A stretch of 55,643 bases of DNA from a virus: positions 1 to 55,643 of the IMG/VR virus record IMGVR_UViG_3300032331_001807; one strand, given 5' to 3'. Positions within the stretch are counted from its first letter, which is position 1, and every line of letters begins with the position of its first letter. The notes under the pieces were generated by a model. That model did not search any database. It saw only the letters and a list, made by a program, of their open reading frames with translations, and had not been told where the DNA came from. Position numbers and translations under genes: made by a program. Shown one piece after another: positions 5,401-55,643 of this stretch.

Positions 5401-6003
5401 TCAGCGAACGGCACCCTTGAGGTCGGGGTAGTTCTTGGTGAGGAAGTCGATGGCGCTGCGGGCCGAGCGGGTCATGTACAGCCCCGCCCCGATGCTCGCC
5501 ATGTGGGACTTGAGAGCCGTCTCGGCGTAGGGCTTGTCCTCGGGCTTGAGGTGGTAGCTCTGGACGAGAGTGTCCAGCACCCACGGGATGCTGTCGGTCG
5601 GGGCTTGGCCCGTGAGCCAGCTACGAACGGCGATCCCACTGGCGTAGGCGTCGGCCTCAAACTGTGCCCGTGCCACCGAGTCCGTGAGGTAGAACCACGC
5701 GAACTCGACGTTGGTGTCGATGAACTGGAGGACGTGCTCGTTCTCGTGGGTGACCACCTCGCAGAGCGAGAGCGGGTTCTCACGGATCGACTTGGGCAGG
5801 TAGATGGTCTTGGCGAGGGTGGTGGCGAAGCGGGTCATGAAGTCGGCCCCGCCCGGGAGCCCACTGGAGAAGTTCGACCCGATGTCCATGCCGAAGGACA
5901 CGGCCTTCATGAGGGTCGAGTCCTCTTTGTTCTCGACGGTCGAGCCGTACTCGACCGAGAGGTGCTCTTGGAGCTTCTTGGCGACGATGGCGAGGTCGGT
6001 CAT
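5401..6003 (-). CDS. putative zinc metallopeptidase-like protein (200 aa)
   Basis: The segment LCEVVTHENEHVLQF contains a HExxH-type zinc site (HENEH), and RAQFEADAYASG follows about 45 residues later and could provide the third, glutamate ligand, as in zincins. The protein has no signal peptide. An SD-like GGAGG lies 10 bases before the ATG. The neighbours are a tagged protein and a lipoprotein, so it may belong to a virion or host-interaction set inserted into the recombination operon. A non-catalytic structural role cannot be excluded. Confidence 0.6.
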   Translation of the reverse strand: MTDLAIVAKKLQEHLSVEYGSTVENKEDSTLMKAVSFGMDIGSNFSSGLPGGADFMTRFATTLAKTIYLPKSIRENPLSLCEVVTHENEHVLQFIDTNVEFAWFYLTDSVARAQFEADAYASGIAVRSWLTGQAPTDSIPWVLDTLVQSYHLKPEDKPYAETALKSHMASIGAGLYMTRSARSAIDFLTKNYPDLKGAVR

Positions 6004-6005
6004 GG

Positions 6006-6281
6006 TCAGTTACCTCCCGAGGTGGTGGGGGCGCAGCGGTCTTGGGGGAGGCAGGCATGGACGCCCGTCGCCGGGTCGAGGCAGCACATGCCGCCCGAGG
6101 CCGAACAGCTACCGACGGTCCCGACGGGACGCCAGAGGTTGCCGCCGCAGACGTAGGGATGGCCGTTGAGGCACGTCGAAGTGCCGTTGACGCACGACCC
6201 GGATTGAGGAGTGACGGTCCCGGTCTGTTGGCAGGGACGGCAGGACATGACGAACAAGACGAGCGGGAGCAGCCTCTTCAT
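6006..6281 (-). CDS. cysteine-rich secreted lipoprotein (91 aa)
   Basis: The N-terminus MKRLLPLVLFVMSC is a short lipoprotein signal peptide with cysteine 14 as the lipidation site. The mature part is cysteine-rich (CVNGTSTCLNGHPYVCGG, then GSCSASGGMCCLDP) and likely disulfide-bonded. Patterns of this type are common in secreted lipoproteins of myxobacteria. A ribosome site (AAAGGTGG) precedes the chosen ATG; an upstream ATG at 6317 lies inside the preceding gene. A phage lipoprotein of this kind might act in superinfection exclusion or host surface change, but nothing in the sequence decides this. Confidence 0.7.
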   Translation of the reverse strand: MKRLLPLVLFVMSCRPCQQTGTVTPQSGSCVNGTSTCLNGHPYVCGGNLWRPVGTVGSCSASGGMCCLDPATGVHACLPQDRCAPTTSGGN

Positions 6282-6292
6282 GCGACCACCTT

Positions 6293-7489
6293 TCAAGCAT
6301 GGCCGCAGATAGGGCAACTACCAGCATCCCCGAGGATCTCCTGCACCTCATGGACGGCTTTCTCGTACTCCTCCGTGGTGCGATGAAGCTCGCGGGTGGT
6401 CTCCGAGAAGGACTTGGCCCGGGAGGCGAGGGCCTCCTGCAACGCTTGGTAGTCGGCCAGCCCCGCGATCCCCTTGGCGATGGCCTCCGGGTCGGGGAGA
6501 GGGACCGCCACGGCGGCACGAAGACCCTCCCCGTGCTCGACCGCCGCCGCGAACGGTTCCATCCTGTCGCGGAGGTCGGTGAGGAGGGCGATGGCGTCTG
6601 ACACCTTGCGGACGCGGGTGGCGTCGGCTTCGTCGGGGACCGTGATGCCAGCCACGGGGGCGAGAACTTCGATGACCCGGGTGACCTCCCCGAGCTTGGC
6701 TTGGAGCTCCCGAGCCTCGTCGAGCGCGGCGAGCCCCGTGCGGATGTCCGCCACCCCGTCGGGCACCCCCACGTCCCGAACGGGACGGAGGTTGGATGCG
6801 GTCAGAGACAGGGAGAGGTGCGCGTCGTGGAGGGCACGGGTCTCGTCGTCTTGGCGACGGAGGTCGGCCACGAGGGCGTCGAGGGCTTCGGCCTCTTGGG
6901 CGAGAGCCTCTACGTCGTCCAGCCCCGCATAGCTGGCATCCTGTGCCTCGTACCGGGCCACGTCTCCGAGGCGGACCTTGAGCTCCGAGGCCAGCGTGCG
7001 CTTGTCGCTCTGGGTGTTCCGCAGGGCCTCGTTGAGCACCCCCACCCGCGTCACGTCGGCTACGGACTCCGCGAGAACGGAACCCGGTTGATCGAGGAGG
7101 AACACCTGCCCGGTGAACTGCTGGGCGAACTGGGGCCACACCTCCCGGCCAGCGGCGGTGATCGGGACCACCCCGAAGGACTCCACCTCCACGGGGACGC
7201 CCGAGCCCACCTTGTCCAGCACCTTGCCGTCCACGGTGTAGCGGTTGACCTTCTCGCCCTTCTCCCACGAGAGTGAGCGCCCGTCACCGAACGTCACGTC
7301 CACTCGGCACTGGTCCTTGCCGTAACGGACGTACTTGGTGCCCCGTGCGTTGGTGAACGCGCCGTGGACGGCCCGGAGCATGGCGCTCTTGCCCGTGTTG
7401 TTCTGGCCCGTGATGACGGTCAGACCCGAGACCTCGATCTCGGCATCCTCGATGGATTGGAAGTCCCGCACCCGGATCTTGACCGTCAT
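6293..7489 (-). CDS. Rad50/SbcC-like ATPase, N-terminal lobe with half zinc hook
   Basis: A 398-residue protein with the N-terminal lobe of the SMC/Rad50 family. FQSIEDAEIEVSGLTVITGQNNTGKSAML contains the Walker A site (about residues 28-36) and a Q-loop-like region (PQFAQQFTGQVFLLDQPGSV) follows. A coiled coil runs from about residue 170 and ends exactly in CPICGHA, the CxxC of a Rad50 zinc hook. The chain stops at the hook, so the returning coil and the Walker B lobe are absent. The lobe is encoded separately at 893-1528. The ATG at 7489 has a good ribosome site (AGGAGCGGGTG) and follows the RecA gene. Confidence 0.85.
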   Translation of the reverse strand: MTVKIRVRDFQSIEDAEIEVSGLTVITGQNNTGKSAMLRAVHGAFTNARGTKYVRYGKDQCRVDVTFGDGRSLSWEKGEKVNRYTVDGKVLDKVGSGVPVEVESFGVVPITAAGREVWPQFAQQFTGQVFLLDQPGSVLAESVADVTRVGVLNEALRNTQSDKRTLASELKVRLGDVARYEAQDASYAGLDDVEALAQEAEALDALVADLRRQDDETRALHDAHLSLSLTASNLRPVRDVGVPDGVADIRTGLAALDEARELQAKLGEVTRVIEVLAPVAGITVPDEADATRVRKVSDAIALLTDLRDRMEPFAAAVEHGEGLRAAVAVPLPDPEAIAKGIAGLADYQALQEALASRAKSFSETTRELHRTTEEYEKAVHEVQEILGDAGSCPICGHA

Positions 7490-7501: not shown

Positions 7502-8722
7502 TCAGTCTTCGCTCTCGACGGCGACAGGAGCCTTTACGCCGGGGACGGAAGAAAGGAGCTCGTCGAGCTCGCCGTCCGTGGTGTCACCCTCCTCGACGAC
7601 GGTGGCGGGGGGGACCTGCATGAGCTTGGGCGTCACCTGCGAGAAGAGGGTCTGGAGGTTCTTGGGGTCTTCGTTGATGGACTTGAGGAGGGCGTCCATG
7701 CCCTGCCCACGGACCTCACCCTTCGGACCCGTCGGCCACGAGTACCACGCCCCGGACTTGTTGATGATCTTGTGGTTGATCGCGAGCTCGACCACCGAGC
7801 GGGTGTTGTCGATGCCCACGCCCGACTTGAGGTAGAACTTGAACTCGTTGTTCACCGAGTCGCTGACCTTGCACTTGTCGAGCTTGAGCATGACGATGGT
7901 TCCCACCACCTTCTCCTCCAGCTTGTTCGTGAGCGGGTCGAACTGCTTGGCCTTCTCCTTCTGGTAGACCCGCAGCTTCATGCGGACGCTGGTGTAGAAC
8001 TTCCACGCATCGCCGCCTTGCGGGGCGCTGTCGGGACCACCGCTCATCGTGTTGATCGTCTTGCGAAGCTGCGAGATGGCGAGGATGGTGGTCTGCGACT
8101 TGGACATCATCGCCTTCACTTGAGGGAGGTACTCGGACCACTTTGAGGCGACGATGCCCACGCGCGTCTGGTCACCGATCTCCGACACCTCCCGGTTGAT
8201 CTGTGCTTCGGGCTTGCCTGCGCCCACGGAGTCGAGAACGATGAGGTCCACGCCCTCGTGGATCATCACGGCCATGATCTTCATCCCGTCCTCCAGCGTG
8301 TCGGGCTGGATGAGACTGAAGCGGGACTCGTCGGAGATGGGCACGCCGAGGGTGCTGGCGTAGCGGGGCTCCACCTCGTGCTCCCAGTCGATGTACGCAA
8401 CGGTGCCGCCCGCCGCACACACGCTGGCGGCGATGGTGAGAGCCAGCGTGGTCTTGCCCGCCGAGTTCTCTCCGTACAACTGGGTGATGCGGCCACGGGG
8501 GATGCCGGGGCACGGGGCGATCCCGTACTTGTTGATCTTCCCGCCGATGGCCCAGTCAACGATGATGCTTCCCGTGGGGATGTGCGGGGTGGACTGCTTG
8601 AGGAGGTCCTCGGAGAGCGGGACCGTGGGGTCTTCCTTGAGGACGGTCTTGATCGCGCCACGGGCGCGGGTGAGAGCGGATGTCTTGGCGGGGGAGGTTG
8701 CGGACTTCTTGGCTGCGGCCAT
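7502..8722 (-). CDS. RecA-family recombinase
   Basis: A 406-residue RecA/UvsX-type recombinase. Walker A is GENSAGKTT (residues 84-92) and Walker B is GVDLIVLDSVGA near 158. A DNA-binding L1/L2-like region follows (SQTTILAISQLRKTINTMSGGPDSAPQGGDAWKFYTSVRM), matching the RecA motif in which the filament contacts DNA. It would catalyse strand exchange in recombination-dependent replication and repair together with SSB, the RuvC-like enzyme and the Mre11/Rad50 complex encoded on either side. Compared with bacterial RecA it has a longer N-terminal extension rich in Ala and Lys and an acidic C-terminal tail, both usual in the family. Confidence 0.9.
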   Translation of the reverse strand: MAAAKKSATSPAKTSALTRARGAIKTVLKEDPTVPLSEDLLKQSTPHIPTGSIIVDWAIGGKINKYGIAPCPGIPRGRITQLYGENSAGKTTLALTIAASVCAAGGTVAYIDWEHEVEPRYASTLGVPISDESRFSLIQPDTLEDGMKIMAVMIHEGVDLIVLDSVGAGKPEAQINREVSEIGDQTRVGIVASKWSEYLPQVKAMMSKSQTTILAISQLRKTINTMSGGPDSAPQGGDAWKFYTSVRMKLRVYQKEKAKQFDPLTNKLEEKVVGTIVMLKLDKCKVSDSVNNEFKFYLKSGVGIDNTRSVVELAINHKIINKSGAWYSWPTGPKGEVRGQGMDALLKSINEDPKNLQTLFSQVTPKLMQVPPATVVEEGDTTDGELDELLSSVPGVKAPVAVESED

Positions 8723-24958: not shown

Positions 24959-25132
24959 ATGAAGGTCTGGATCGTGACGGCGGGTTGGAACCGCGAAGAG
25001 ACGTGGATTCTCGGCGTGTTCGCCACGGAGCAGGGTGCCCAAGCGTTCGTGGGAACCCTCCCCGTGGACGGACGTGGCATGTTCGACGGATACGACTTCG
25101 TGCGGGTCCATGCCTACGACGTGACGCTGTGA
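24959..25132 (+). CDS. small hypothetical protein (57 aa)
   Basis: This short gene, absent from usual size cut-offs, reads MKVWIVTAGWNREETWILGV, then AFVGTLPVDGRGMFDGY and ends YDVTL. It is compact, beta-rich and begins 9 bases after a GGGCGTAA that contains the previous stop codon. Its TGA overlaps the GTG of the first FGE-core cassette. It resembles no FGE N-terminal domain, so the cassettes that follow are orphans. Confidence 0.55.
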   Translation: MKVWIVTAGWNREETWILGVFATEQGAQAFVGTLPVDGRGMFDGYDFVRVHAYDVTL

Positions 25133-25317
25133 ACAACCCCAAGCCCAAGCCCAAGCCCAAGCCCGACAACCTCCCCCGCGTGTATCGCGGCGGGTCGTGG
25201 TTCAGCACGTCCGCCACCCTCGTGCGCGCGGCTTCTCGCTACGACTTCACGTCGTCGATCCGTCACTACATCTTCGGGTTTCGCTGTGTGCTGCGGGGAA
25301 GGGAACCCCGAGTATGA
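25129..25317 (+). CDS. stand-alone FGE-sulfatase C-terminal core, cassette A (62 aa)
   Basis: A GTG start overlaps the preceding TGA. After a (KP)-repeat linker (NNPKPKPKPKPDNLP), RVYRGGSWFSTSATLVRAASR and HYIFGFRCVLRGREPRV form the complete C-terminal core of the formylglycine-generating-enzyme fold (RGGSW, R-x-A-x-R, GFRC), and nothing else. In normal proteins this core follows a GNVWEWT segment in the same chain; here it stands alone. The last 21 bases are identical to those of cassette D at 54299-54319, and the next cassette begins in the overlapping ATGA. Confidence 0.75.
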   Translation: MNNPKPKPKPKPDNLPRVYRGGSWFSTSATLVRAASRYDFTSSIRHYIFGFRCVLRGREPRV

Positions 25318-25484
25318 GCCCGATCAAAACCCCGCGTGCCATCCGTGGCACCAGTTGGGCCTATCGCGACCCCGGCGAGGACCGCGCCGAGATTCGCGTC
25401 TGTAACGGCATTGAGGATCGCCTACCCGTCGTGGGCTTCCGTTGCTCGCTGCGGGCAAGGGCACCCGTAGAGGCTGATCCGTGA
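25314..25484 (+). CDS. stand-alone FGE-type core, cassette B (56 aa)
   Basis: ATG overlaps the stop of cassette A (ATGA). The protein PRAIRGTSWAYRDPGEDRAEIRVCNG and LPVVGFRCSLRARAPVEADP retains the R-G-x-S-W opening and GFRC-x-LR ending of the FGE core, with a very different middle. Basic residues (R) replace the usual R-x-A-x-R element, so the fold may be degraded. The stop overlaps the GTG of cassette C, keeping the three translationally coupled. Confidence 0.65.
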   Translation: MSPIKTPRAIRGTSWAYRDPGEDRAEIRVCNGIEDRLPVVGFRCSLRARAPVEADP

Positions 25485-25663
25485 GCAATCCCGCCTCCCT
25501 CCGTAACGGAGGTTGGGCCGAGGAGGAGCCCGAGACCTTTCGGGCGGCTCACCGTCGCCAAGGCGTGCGCGCCTACCGATGCTGGGGAGCACCCTCGTAC
25601 CGTGACGACGAGACCGGGTTCCGCACCGTGCTGACGGCGGCACGGCAACCCGTCCGGGCGTAA
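25481..25663 (+). CDS. stand-alone FGE-type core, cassette C (60 aa)
   Basis: The GTG overlaps the TGA of cassette B. SLRNGGWAEEEPETFRAAHRRQG opens like the R-G-G-x-W element, with FRAAHR matching R-x-A-x-R, and DDETGFRTVLTAARQPVRA ends like GFR-x-x-LR. The most divergent cassette of the left locus. Its TAA lies in a GGGCGTAA motif that precedes the next gene by 8 bases. With A and B it makes a tandem set of three FGE cores without an N-terminal domain. Confidence 0.6.
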   Translation: MSNPASLRNGGWAEEEPETFRAAHRRQGVRAYRCWGAPSYRDDETGFRTVLTAARQPVRA

Positions 25664-26925: not shown

Positions 26926-27011
26926 GGCTGACTCCTACCCCATTGCGGGGATAGGTGAGGAAACGAAGGGCGGGTTGTTACACTCTCGCCCGCATCTCCA
27001 TGGAGACTTCA

Positions 27012-53324: not shown

Positions 53325-54149
53325 ATGAAGATCCAAGTCTGCATCGTCGAGGGACCCAAGGGGGTCTGGCTCGACTACGAGCCCTCCACACCCCTCCCCA
53401 ACACGGATCATCCCGACGAGGTCGCCGGGGTGGTCAACACCATCCGCCTGCCCGAGGGTGTCACCGCCCTGCGGGTACTCACGGCGACGGAGGTGTGGAG
53501 CTTCCACTACCACCCCTCCTACGGGTGCGTCCCGCGCCTCCGCATCGAGGCGGGTGAGGTGGTGATGGAATGGCCGACGAACGCCGAGGTGGGCGGCGTC
53601 TGGACGGTCCACCACGTCCTGCCCGACGGGAACCTCCTGCCCCATTGCTACGTCGAGGGAGCCACGTCCTTCATGATGGGCGACGACGAGAGCCAGACCC
53701 GTCGCAAGGTCGTCGTCGAGGCGGGCTTCATGGCCTTCACCCCGACGACCGTGAGGCAGTGGAACTGGTACGCCACGGACATGGGCAAGGAGCTCAAGCC
53801 CACCACCGTCACGGACAAGTCGGGCGCGACGGTGGACCTGAGCGACCACCCGGTGGTGGAAGTCTCCTACTGGGAATCGTGCGAGTTCGCCAAGTGGGCG
53901 GGCGTCGGCCTCCCCACGGAGGAGGAGTGGGAGCGCGCCGCGCGCGGCAACGACGGGCGCAAGTTTCCGTGGGGCAACGACGCCCCCAAGGATGAGCTCT
54001 GCTGGTCGAGCATTCACTCCCAGAAGGAGCGCACCGCGCCGTGCTTCAACCCGGACGGCACCCCCGCCCGCCCCAAGGGTGCCTCCCCCTACGGGCTGCT
54101 CGACATGAGCGGCAACGTCTGGGAGTGGACCAGCACCGTCCACAAGTGA
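53325..54149 (+). CDS. FGE-sulfatase-domain protein lacking its C-terminal core (274 aa)
   Basis: The first about 100 residues are an unrelated beta-rich part (MKIQVCIVEGPKGVWLDYE, TVHHVLPDGNLLPHCYVE). The rest is a formylglycine-generating-enzyme/sulfatase-modifying fold: TSFMMGDDESQTRRKVVVEAGFMAFTPTTVRQWNWY, DHPVVEVSYWESCEFAKWAGVGLPTEEEWERAARGNDG, FPWGNDAPKDELCWSS, SPYGLLDMSGNVWEWTST. Normal proteins continue to R-x-x-RGGSW...GFRC; this one stops at VHK-TGA, four residues after NVWEWTST begins to end. The missing core is the next gene, whose GTG overlaps this stop. SD TAAGGAG lies before the ATG. Confidence 0.8.
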   Translation: MKIQVCIVEGPKGVWLDYEPSTPLPNTDHPDEVAGVVNTIRLPEGVTALRVLTATEVWSFHYHPSYGCVPRLRIEAGEVVMEWPTNAEVGGVWTVHHVLPDGNLLPHCYVEGATSFMMGDDESQTRRKVVVEAGFMAFTPTTVRQWNWYATDMGKELKPTTVTDKSGATVDLSDHPVVEVSYWESCEFAKWAGVGLPTEEEWERAARGNDGRKFPWGNDAPKDELCWSSIHSQKERTAPCFNPDGTPARPKGASPYGLLDMSGNVWEWTSTVHK

Positions 54150-54319
54150 GACGGGCACAGCCCCCGGACCCCAACCTCCCCCGCGTACTGGTGGGAGGAG
54201 GTTGGGAACTCTCCTACGCCCCGTTCATGCGGCCCGCCGACCGGGGCTCGTACGAGCCCGAGTGGCGCGAGACCGACATTTTTCGCACCCACCTCGCAGG
54301 AAGGGAACCCCGAGTATGA
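54146..54319 (+). CDS. stand-alone FGE C-terminal core, cassette D (57 aa)
   Basis: The GTG overlaps the TGA of the FGE N-terminal gene (GTGA). NLPRVLVGGGWELSYAPFMRPADRG and TDIFRTHLAGREPRV correspond to RVLRGGSW, R-x-A-x-R and GFRC-x-LRGREPRV of the FGE core but with several key residues replaced (V for R, G for S, T for C). Termination-reinitiation or a -1 shift could join it to the N-terminal domain. The last 21 bases equal those of cassette A at 25297-25317. Confidence 0.7.
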   Translation: MRRAQPPDPNLPRVLVGGGWELSYAPFMRPADRGSYEPEWRETDIFRTHLAGREPRV

Positions 54320-54489
54320 AGCCCCCTACCAAGCCCACCGACACCCGCCTCCGCATCCTCCGCGGCGGCTGTTGGTACAACTATGGACCGTCGAGGGTGC
54401 GCGCGGCGTATCGCAACGCGAACGTGCCTGCGCTCCGAAACTTCCACATCGGGTTTCGGTGCGCGCTGCGGGGTAGGGAACCCCGGTGA
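54316..54489 (+). CDS. stand-alone FGE C-terminal core, cassette E (57 aa)
   Basis: ATG overlaps the TGA of cassette D (ATGA). TRLRILRGGCWYNYGPSRVRAAYRNANVPALRN and HIGFRCALRGREPR form an intact FGE core. Relative to cassette A, from the shared Trp to GFRC there is one-for-one alignment. Four AAC codons at aligned positions 2, 14, 16 and 22 are replaced in A by AGC, TAC, TTC and CAC. This is the pattern expected when AAC codons are mutagenised at A, as in diversity-generating retroelements. Confidence 0.75.
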   Translation: MKPPTKPTDTRLRILRGGCWYNYGPSRVRAAYRNANVPALRNFHIGFRCALRGREPR

Positions 54490-54503
54490 CGATTCTCGGT
54501 TAC
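54490..54503 (+). promoter_or_regulatory. recurring 14-base motif, plus copy
   Basis: CGATTCTCGGTTAC, exact consensus, 29 bases before the ATG at 54533, and directly after the stop of cassette E. Confidence 0.75.
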
Positions 54504-54532
54504 AGCCCCGACCCCGTCTCCGTGGTGCTGGC

Positions 54533-55037: not shown

Positions 55038-55051
55038 CGATTTCCTGTTAC
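55038..55051 (+). promoter_or_regulatory. recurring 14-base motif, plus copy
   Basis: CGATTTCCTGTTAC, 29 bases before the ATG at 55081. An upstream ATGACCACC at 55027 looks like the remnant of an earlier leader copy and is in frame, but the motif lies within it and argues for the 55081 start. Confidence 0.65.
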
Positions 55052-55089
55052 ACCACACCCACCGTCTCCGTGGGGAGAGCATGACCACC
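55047..55089 (+). repeat. 43-bp exact leader repeat, copy 1
   Basis: It runs from GTTACACCACACCC to GCATGACCACC and is identical to 55601-55643. It covers the motif end, the CTCCGTGGGGAG hairpin/ribosome site and the first three codons, so the whole leader is duplicated. Confidence 0.9.
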
Positions 55090-55530
55090 ACCGTCACCGT
55101 CCTCGTAGGCGTCCCCGGCAGCGGCAAGTCTCACCACACGGAGTCCCTCACGGGTGCCGTGGTGGTCAGCGCCGACCACTACTTTGTCGAGTTGGGAGGT
55201 GGCACCTACGCCTTCGACCCGTCGAAGTTGGGAGCGGCCCACGGGCAGTGCCTTCGCAGGTACACGGAAGCCCTGCAACGGGGTGAGAGCCACGTCGTCG
55301 TGGACAACACGAACACGACCAGCTTGGAGATGGCCCCCTACGTCTCGCTGGCCCTCGCCTACGGGTACCGGGTCGAGATCGTCCGGGTGACCTGCGACCC
55401 CGCCGTGGCAGCGGCGCGCAACACCCACGGGGTCCCAGAAGGGGCCATCCGGGCGATGCACGAACGGATCACGGCCACGTTCCAGACCGGGCTCCCGCCC
55501 TTCTGGCCCGTGACCGTGCGGATGGTGTGA
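55081..55530 (+). CDS. P-loop kinase (polynucleotide/NEDD4BP2-like, 149 aa)
   Basis: VTVLVGVPGSGKSHHTESL contains Walker A (residues 10-17). VVVSADHYFVELGGGTYAFDPSKLGAAHGQCLRRYTEAL follows the pattern of the ATP-binding kinase family related to NEDD4-binding protein 2 and T4 polynucleotide kinase, with VVVDNTNTT (Walker B-like) and VRVTCDPAVAAARNTHGVP (lid with Arg). It probably phosphorylates a nucleic-acid 5-prime end or a small molecule. No phosphatase domain is fused. Confidence 0.8.
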   Translation: MTTTVTVLVGVPGSGKSHHTESLTGAVVVSADHYFVELGGGTYAFDPSKLGAAHGQCLRRYTEALQRGESHVVVDNTNTTSLEMAPYVSLALAYGYRVEIVRVTCDPAVAAARNTHGVPEGAIRAMHERITATFQTGLPPFWPVTVRMV

Positions 55531-55591: not shown

Positions 55592-55605
55592 CGATTCCCA
55601 GTTAC
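55592..55605 (+). promoter_or_regulatory. recurring 14-base motif, plus copy
   Basis: CGATTCCCAGTTAC, 29 bases before the ATG at 55635. A TTGACC at 55572-55577 lies upstream but its spacing does not fit a standard -10 in the motif. Confidence 0.65.
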
Positions 55606-55643
55606 ACCACACCCACCGTCTCCGTGGGGAGAGCATGACCACC
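55601..55643 (+). repeat. 43-bp exact leader repeat, copy 2 (reaches window edge)
   Basis: Identical to 55047-55089 and cut by the end of the window, so the identity may continue. Confidence 0.9.
55635..55643 (+). CDS. start of next gene, only three codons visible
   Basis: ATG ACC ACC follows the leader at the regular distance, as in the kinase gene. The body lies beyond the window, so nothing about the product can be said. Confidence 0.55.

Follow-up and report, generated by a model that had tools for sequence, protein, structure and literature searches.

The Question Raised by the Locus

The window analysed here, a whole IMG/VR record of 55,643 bases (G000), carries near its right end a gene whose product begins as a protein of the FGE/C-type-lectin (CLec) fold and stops before its C-terminal core. 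The question raised by this locus is whether the gene is simply broken or whether a binder of this fold is encoded in pieces. According to the original prediction, the gene at 53325 keeps the FGE fold up to GNVWEWTSTVHK and then stops, and the two overlapping mini-genes that follow each encode the missing C-terminal core. Both statements are confirmed. The product of the gene, referred to below as the body, covers positions 15-193 of the 255 positions of the PF03781 profile (108.5 bits); an N-terminal part of about 110 aa, of unknown kind, stands ahead of the FGE/CLec fold. The chain ends after GNVWEWTSTVHK and before the RGGSW...GFR core. Tip E corresponds to PF03781 positions 206-254 with 29.7 bits (cut-off 23.3). 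Tip D alone has no Pfam match; it is recognised by a tip profile that did not include D as a member. In an alignment, the split point coincides with the loop that joins GNVWEW to RGGSW; several single-chain relatives have only a very short loop here.

Scanning the window with the E core led to a second site, with three tips (A-C) that had been missed at first, giving one body and five tips in the window (Table 1). The product of the DUF7336 gene that precedes tip A is perhaps another type of partner with which tips combine.

Table 1. Features of the window, in order of position
Feature	Position	Strand	Description
UvsX-like recombinase gene	7502-8722	-	phrog_97, E 1.7e-56
DUF7336 gene	24959-25132		stop overlaps tip A
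Tip A	25129-25317	+	62 aa; overlaps stop of DUF7336 gene; PF03781 positions 207-254, 24.7 bits
Tip B	25314-25484	+	56 aa; ATGA overlap with A; 29.9 bits to tip profile
Tip C	25481-25663	+	60 aa; GTGA overlap with B; longer insert; 21.4 bits, E 1.6e-5 (tip profile)
Body gene	53325-54149	+	274 aa; FGE/C-type-lectin fold up to GNVWEWTSTVHK, then stop; homologs split at same place
Tip D	54146-54319	+	57 aa; GTGA overlap with body at 54146-54149; 32.7 bits to tip profile
SD-like stretch GGAAGGG for E	54299-54315	+	end of D coding region; same stretch ends tip A at 25297-25313
Tip E	54316-54489	+	57 aa; ATGA overlap with D at 54316-54319; hypervariable group-1 tip, RGGCW...GFRC

Recurrence of the Split in Related Phages

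Homologs of the body were found in viral contigs at the loci L003 (87%), L004 (74%) and L005 (47%); in all three, the body breaks off at the same point and tips come next. The records behind them are G001 (167 kb), G002 (266 kb) and G003 (106 kb). A single sample yielded both G001 and G003, each of which is collinear with its own part of G002; within 1.7 kb, G003 matches both ends of G002. The left ends of G001 and G003 (L112 and L121) break in a short repeat of the same GGGTGAGGGGAAGG type, which flanking matches place near 13.0-13.3 kb of G002. Judging from these matches, G001-G003 may together represent a single kind of phage, about 266-272 kb in size, in two nearly complete maps, with small gaps possible. 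The window aligns collinearly with the part of G001 that runs from 62.7 back to 10.5 kb, at a mean identity of 82%. G000, G001, G002 and G003 each hold one body, and the tip profile detects 5, 16, 25 and 11 tips in them, 57 in total.

A second lineage has the same organisation. The body encoded at locus L014 of record G004 (99 kb, 30% GC) has 202 aa, and behind it come 11 tips of 43-79 aa, each starting with ATG; a twelfth tip-like frame in G004 is seen by profile only. There is no blastn match between G004 and G000-G003, and only 3 of 81 ORFs (of at least 100 aa) match, the body among them. The L014 tips, searched in viral_contigs, returned only L014 itself. The largest clusters comprise 7 tips in G000-G003 and 11 in L014, with up to 25 tips per record. 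Thus, homologous split pairs, which the original prediction had proposed to look for in related phages, are present in G001, G002, G003 and G004/L014. Given this recurrence and the 57 tips of G000-G003, the split is not a matter of chance. The observation is confirmed and larger than first noted.

Tip E gave no tblastn match in phages, and in genome_contigs the search for tip relatives returned two weak matches only: a full-length gene (L150) and a locus without a tip-profile match (L151). At 128 of 137 tip-profile loci, many of them from the same contigs, only full-length single-chain genes are present. The nine loci with tip-like ORFs comprise the split systems L003, L004, L005, L014 and L153 (the L014 contig again) and two contigs that each appear twice (L029/L194 and L033/L202), whose short ORFs retain GNVWEW and adjoin full-length genes. 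RNR matches are spread over phages of many hosts.

Tip D deserves separate comment. Its frame is open, it has no GFR, and VGGGW replaces RGGSW, which bears out the earlier remark that D has lost key residues. The D protein is 86-93% identical in three phages, with dS of 0.05-0.10 as compared to 0.26-0.62 for the body. Since dN/dS is 0.6-0.9, on few changes, the similarity of D reads as a recent exchange of DNA rather than as a sign of strong constraint on the gene, and D may be either a working tip or a decaying copy.

The prevalence of full-length single chains among the tip-profile loci, together with the lost core residues and the dN/dS of D, is what one would expect if a gene had been broken by a sequencing error or had become a pseudogene with D and E as remnants, or if a programmed frameshift joined the pieces into one chain. 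We regard this explanation as extremely improbable. The same split is present in G000-G003 and in G004, the 57 tips are open, and the core is absent from all five bodies of G000-G004, with free cores in each of these records. A sequencing error at 54146-54149, named at the outset as a way to restore one frame, would have to be shared, and it was rejected because the stop codon of the body differs among the records (TGA in G000 and G002, TAG in G001). Programmed frameshifting was rejected as well: relative to the body, D lies in frame -1 and E in frame +1, and the body stops differ as above, so that the suggested fusion of body and tip by frameshift is not supported.

Chaining and Probable Translation of the Tips

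In G000-G003, a tip directly follows another in 36 cases, and in 33 of these its start codon shares 4 nt (ATGA or GTGA) with the preceding stop; in the remaining three, the start lies 9 nt after the stop. Among the ten tip joints of L014, the overlap is 1 nt in five and 4 nt in three, and the other two have offsets of +29 and -7. An SD-like motif occurs at 32 of the 36 junctions vs. 4568 of 20,000 random G002 windows (23%). In the window, the tip tail GREPR is encoded by the stretch that holds GGAAGGG, which suggests that the tail of one tip may double as the SD-like stretch for the next. Reinitiation, offered as a route by the original prediction, agrees with this stop-start coupling.

A leader of the form GTTACA-N-TCTCC(G/A)TGG lies shortly before gene starts at 54499-54525, 55047-55073, 55601-55627 and 26977-27003 (four matches in the window vs. 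0.00 expected in shuffles) and is perhaps a shared promoter or translation leader. After the array, an AAA_33/polynucleotide-kinase-like gene is found at 55081-55530, which matches the PADLOC CARF-AAA model with E 3e-12.

An Adenine-Template Mark in the Hypervariable Codons

Codon usage was counted in group 1, the 28 tips (out of 57) that a motif filter selected; the other 29 were dropped before counting, and 27 of the group-1 cores are distinct. In nine hypervariable columns, these 27 cores have 238 codons, of which 230 are NNC and 8 NNT, with no NNA or NNG, whereas NNA and NNG make up 44% of codons in 173 non-overlapping ORFs of G002. A looser set (open frames of at least 400 codons in six frames, some probably antisense) gave 42%. 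The hypervariable codons change at positions 1 and 2. Serine is encoded by AGC 25 times and never by TCC, while the G002 ORFs use TCC 1321 and AGC 1058 times. At 24 of the 25 sites with three or more bases A is present, and no site reaches 80% A. In codons of the types NCG, GNG, GNA and NGT, mainly one base varies. Changes most often give Tyr, Asp or Ser, the same residues as those reported for BPP-1 bRT on AAC in PMC12875486, and the description of template adenines in the DGR literature, as given in PMC8144416, fits the codon pattern of the tips.

The A sites were deduced from the tips themselves and not from a template. In a held-out comparison, sites at which A occurs in 18 cores of G002/G003 were examined in the 9 cores of G000/G001, where 553 of 912 comparisons show a difference, as compared to 246 of 3036 at the other sites. 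When site sets were drawn at random from codon positions 1 and 2, none of 5000 reached the A-site value.

The same mark appears outside this phage kind. In L014, four of the 11 tip cores (5738-7096) have 61-72% GC between flanks of 5-24% GC, the other cores having 28-48%, and 35 of the 40 hypervariable codons of these four cores are NNC in a phage of 30% GC whose neighbouring genes have GC3 of 0.12-0.23. The GC-rich cores may have been written recently from a template of high GC content, or else captured, with drift thereafter. No template was seen among the GC islands of G004, one of which overlaps a tRNA-Leu gene. In addition, 15 motif-selected single-chain tips from other phage contigs, some of them nearly identical, have 113 C, 48 T, 3 A and 1 G at the third base (n = 165). 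Single-chain FGE genes with NNC/NNT hypervariable tips include L173, L178, L180, L182, L185, L195, L205 and others.

Ordinary positive selection combined with a GC-rich codon bias, with no targeted mutator, might produce part of this picture, since variation is expected in binding loops and the genome favours C at the third codon position (0.43). This explanation is very unlikely. It does not account for the lack of NNA and NNG among 238 codons when 44% of genomic codons are of these types, for Ser being encoded only by AGC, for codons of the four types named above varying mainly at one base, or for the recurrence of the mark in the 30% GC phage and the 15 single-chain tips. In line with DGR variable repeats, the changes are confined to A sites as deduced from the tips. 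These codon data strongly indicate that adenine-template mutagenesis, as in DGRs, diversified the tip cores of group 1. One detail departs from the BPP-1 enzyme: the second A of AAC has become C in 1 of 238 codons. According to the accessible part of PMC12875486, bRT has a raised G misincorporation at this position, so that C would be expected there, and the single case counts against a BPP-1-like enzyme.

Search for the Diversification Machinery

A search with PF00078 found no RT in the five records G000-G004, in which small gaps are possible; the BPP-1 Brt control was found with E 9e-19. In 13 further phage records (10 from IMG/VR and the three named Microcystis phages LMM01, MaMV-DL02 and Mic1), nothing exceeded the cut-off, with one 12-bit match in G007. 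With BPP-1 Brt as a phmmer query, the best E values were 0.33 in G000-G003 and 0.23 in G004, and no match was convincing. With BPP-1 Avd, the best E value in G000-G003 was 1.9; this was one query, and Avd is a diverse family. A mask scan for a template repeat on both strands of G000-G003 detected tip copies only, the best having 15 of 23 A. One scan of viral_contigs with template patterns gave no matches, and the others gave matches only in records G001-G004.

Hairpins were sought after the core. On CGGGG, 14 of 28 cores have stems of 5-8 bp with loops of 5-7 nt; there are other or weaker pairings in 7 and none in the remaining 7. In phage DGRs, a GC-rich stem of 7-10 bp with a 4-nt GRNA loop follows the variable repeat, as stated in the consulted portion of PMC3240598, and the 28 tip cores checked do not conform to this rule.

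With RT, Avd and template copy all undetected in the phage records, the writer may have acted in trans or in an ancestor, or it may sit in sequence outside these records. Variable repeats far from the RT are described in bacterial genomes in the available text of PMC7517822 and PMC10907252, where they are best explained by writing in trans. In those remote targets, the RT is in the same genome, whereas the examined phage records have none, so that action in trans would need crossing from the host or another element. One may tentatively suppose that the phages hold only the acceptor half of a DGR, namely the arrays of separately translated variable tips and the one shared body, with the RT and template supplied by the host or a co-resident element, while the tips are stored, shuffled and deployed, many at a time, on the one body. 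This is possible, and we do not consider it the likelier course of events.

Probable Shuffling by Recombination

Identical loop modules occur in 13 of 507 within-genome comparisons as opposed to 2 of 627 between-genome comparisons, with G001 and G003 counted as one genome. Mosaics are seen in which one or two loops are shared and another differs. An identical core is present twice in G001, at the distant loci 9229 and 65664, and gives 3 of the 13 within-genome identities. When G000 or G001 is compared with G002, identity is 53-73% over the body start, rises to 97-98% where the body ends, and is 93-98% in D. Taken together, these comparisons indicate that tips have probably been copied and shuffled within the genome by recombination, presumably by homologous recombination anchored in D and the end of the body. 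The UvsX-like recombinase encoded in the window is a candidate agent.

The same three observations (the repeated core, the loop modules common to tips of a genome, and the anchor-like identity of body end and D) would also suit silent donor cassettes that are copied by recombination into an expressed single-chain gene, as in antigenic variation. We think this rather improbable. No body of G000-G004 carries a fused variable tip, and the start codons, 4-nt overlaps and SD-like motifs are kept, although a silent donor has no need of them.

Predicted Fold and Function

Two structure models were made, both from shallow alignments (28 and 21 rows). The first represents the L014 body with its in-frame first tip, stops being read as Q, and not the chain of the window. 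Its body is mostly well predicted. In the tip, pLDDT stays below 50 at residues 223-253 and improves only towards the end, with a mean of 68 for the block 251-260 and of 93 for the final five residues. The model is nearest to TvpA, a DGR variable protein (Foldseek E 1.4e-9; VIA Z 20.0, rmsd 2.8, 195 aligned, model residues 8..264); relatives of FGE, EgtB, PvdO and PorK are among the other matches listed. The L014 model thus has an FGE-type CLec fold with a variable C-terminal core, the tip loops being poorly modelled.

The second model, of tip E alone (21 rows, including 20 other tips), has pLDDT of 47.8 and pTM of 0.15, i.e., no fold is predicted. Such a model fits the complementation of a body by its tip, without proving it.

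FGE enzymes carry paired catalytic cysteines in the C-terminal core. The tips share the PF03781 profile and the fold with these enzymes; however, their chain is split, and alignment to 2q17 and 6muj shows that the LCHDSYC stretch of 2q17 has no counterpart in the tips, with two cysteines absent. Since the tips lack the cysteine pair, we read the split protein as a probable binder and not an enzyme. PADLOC gave no match for tip E or for the two bodies submitted.

Several clusters of tips, A-C of the window among them, are located at a great distance from any body, which also speaks against the reading that we favour below. It is conceivable that tips act as free mini-proteins with no body, e.g., as decoys on host sensors of the STAND type with FGE/CLec domains or as other small binders; DGR-diversified FGE domains in putative sensors of this type have been published, as the accessible part of PMC10907252 describes. 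This appears unlikely, given that tip E alone has no predicted fold (pLDDT as above) and that a body is also present in each of the five tip-bearing records.

A Proposed Body with Interchangeable Tips

The reading that we favour, and hold to be probable, is that one body accepts many separately translated DGR-type tips that are shuffled by recombination. The C-type-lectin/FGE-fold binder would be encoded in pieces: one gene makes the body, and overlapping genes each make a tip, mostly of 45-60 aa, which, as seen at the level of sequence, carries the variable binding surface and the closing strand. As the anatomy of the arrays suggests, each tip would be translated separately by stop-start coupling, its tail often serving as the Shine-Dalgarno stretch of the next. 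The tips would dock non-covalently on the one body, and an infected cell or virion could then display many binding specificities at once. The cores of group 1 would have been written by adenine-template mutagenesis and later copied and shuffled within the genome by recombination. The original interpretation is partly supported: a choice of tips for one body agrees with the coreless bodies and the free cores of every record, fusion by frameshift does not stand, and the adenine signature had not been seen.

Relation to Known Systems and Implications

TvpA of Treponema denticola (2y3c) and TaqVP (5vf4) resemble the split protein in the fold of the L014 model (Z 20.0 and Z 9.0, respectively), in the C-terminal position of the variable core and in NNC hypervariable codons. 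In these two proteins, body and variable core form one chain, and 2y3c and 5vf4 both align over the body and the tip end of the model, whereas in the split phages the core is a separate, clustered gene, with no RT or template found. Mtd of phage BPP-1 is a CLec protein. The BPP-1 system (mtd, TR, avd, brt) likewise diversifies a CLec binder of a phage at adenine sites; however, its RT, Avd, TR and VR lie side by side, and the first three were not found in the split-tip records. Among titles and abstract openings, from outside most subscription journals and bioRxiv, we found neither a split CLec protein with arrays of free tips nor phage variable repeats written by a host RT.

In the portions of the cited papers that were available, the DGR binders described are changed in place within one chain. 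Adenine-type hypervariability with no detectable RT makes trans-acting or borrowed hypermutation testable by resequencing and host genomics. If the proposed arrangement is true, it would offer a natural split-lectin scaffold for protein engineering. For the phages themselves, one body served by many free tips in parallel would, if true, constitute a combinatorial repertoire inside the phage genome, with 57 tips in four records.
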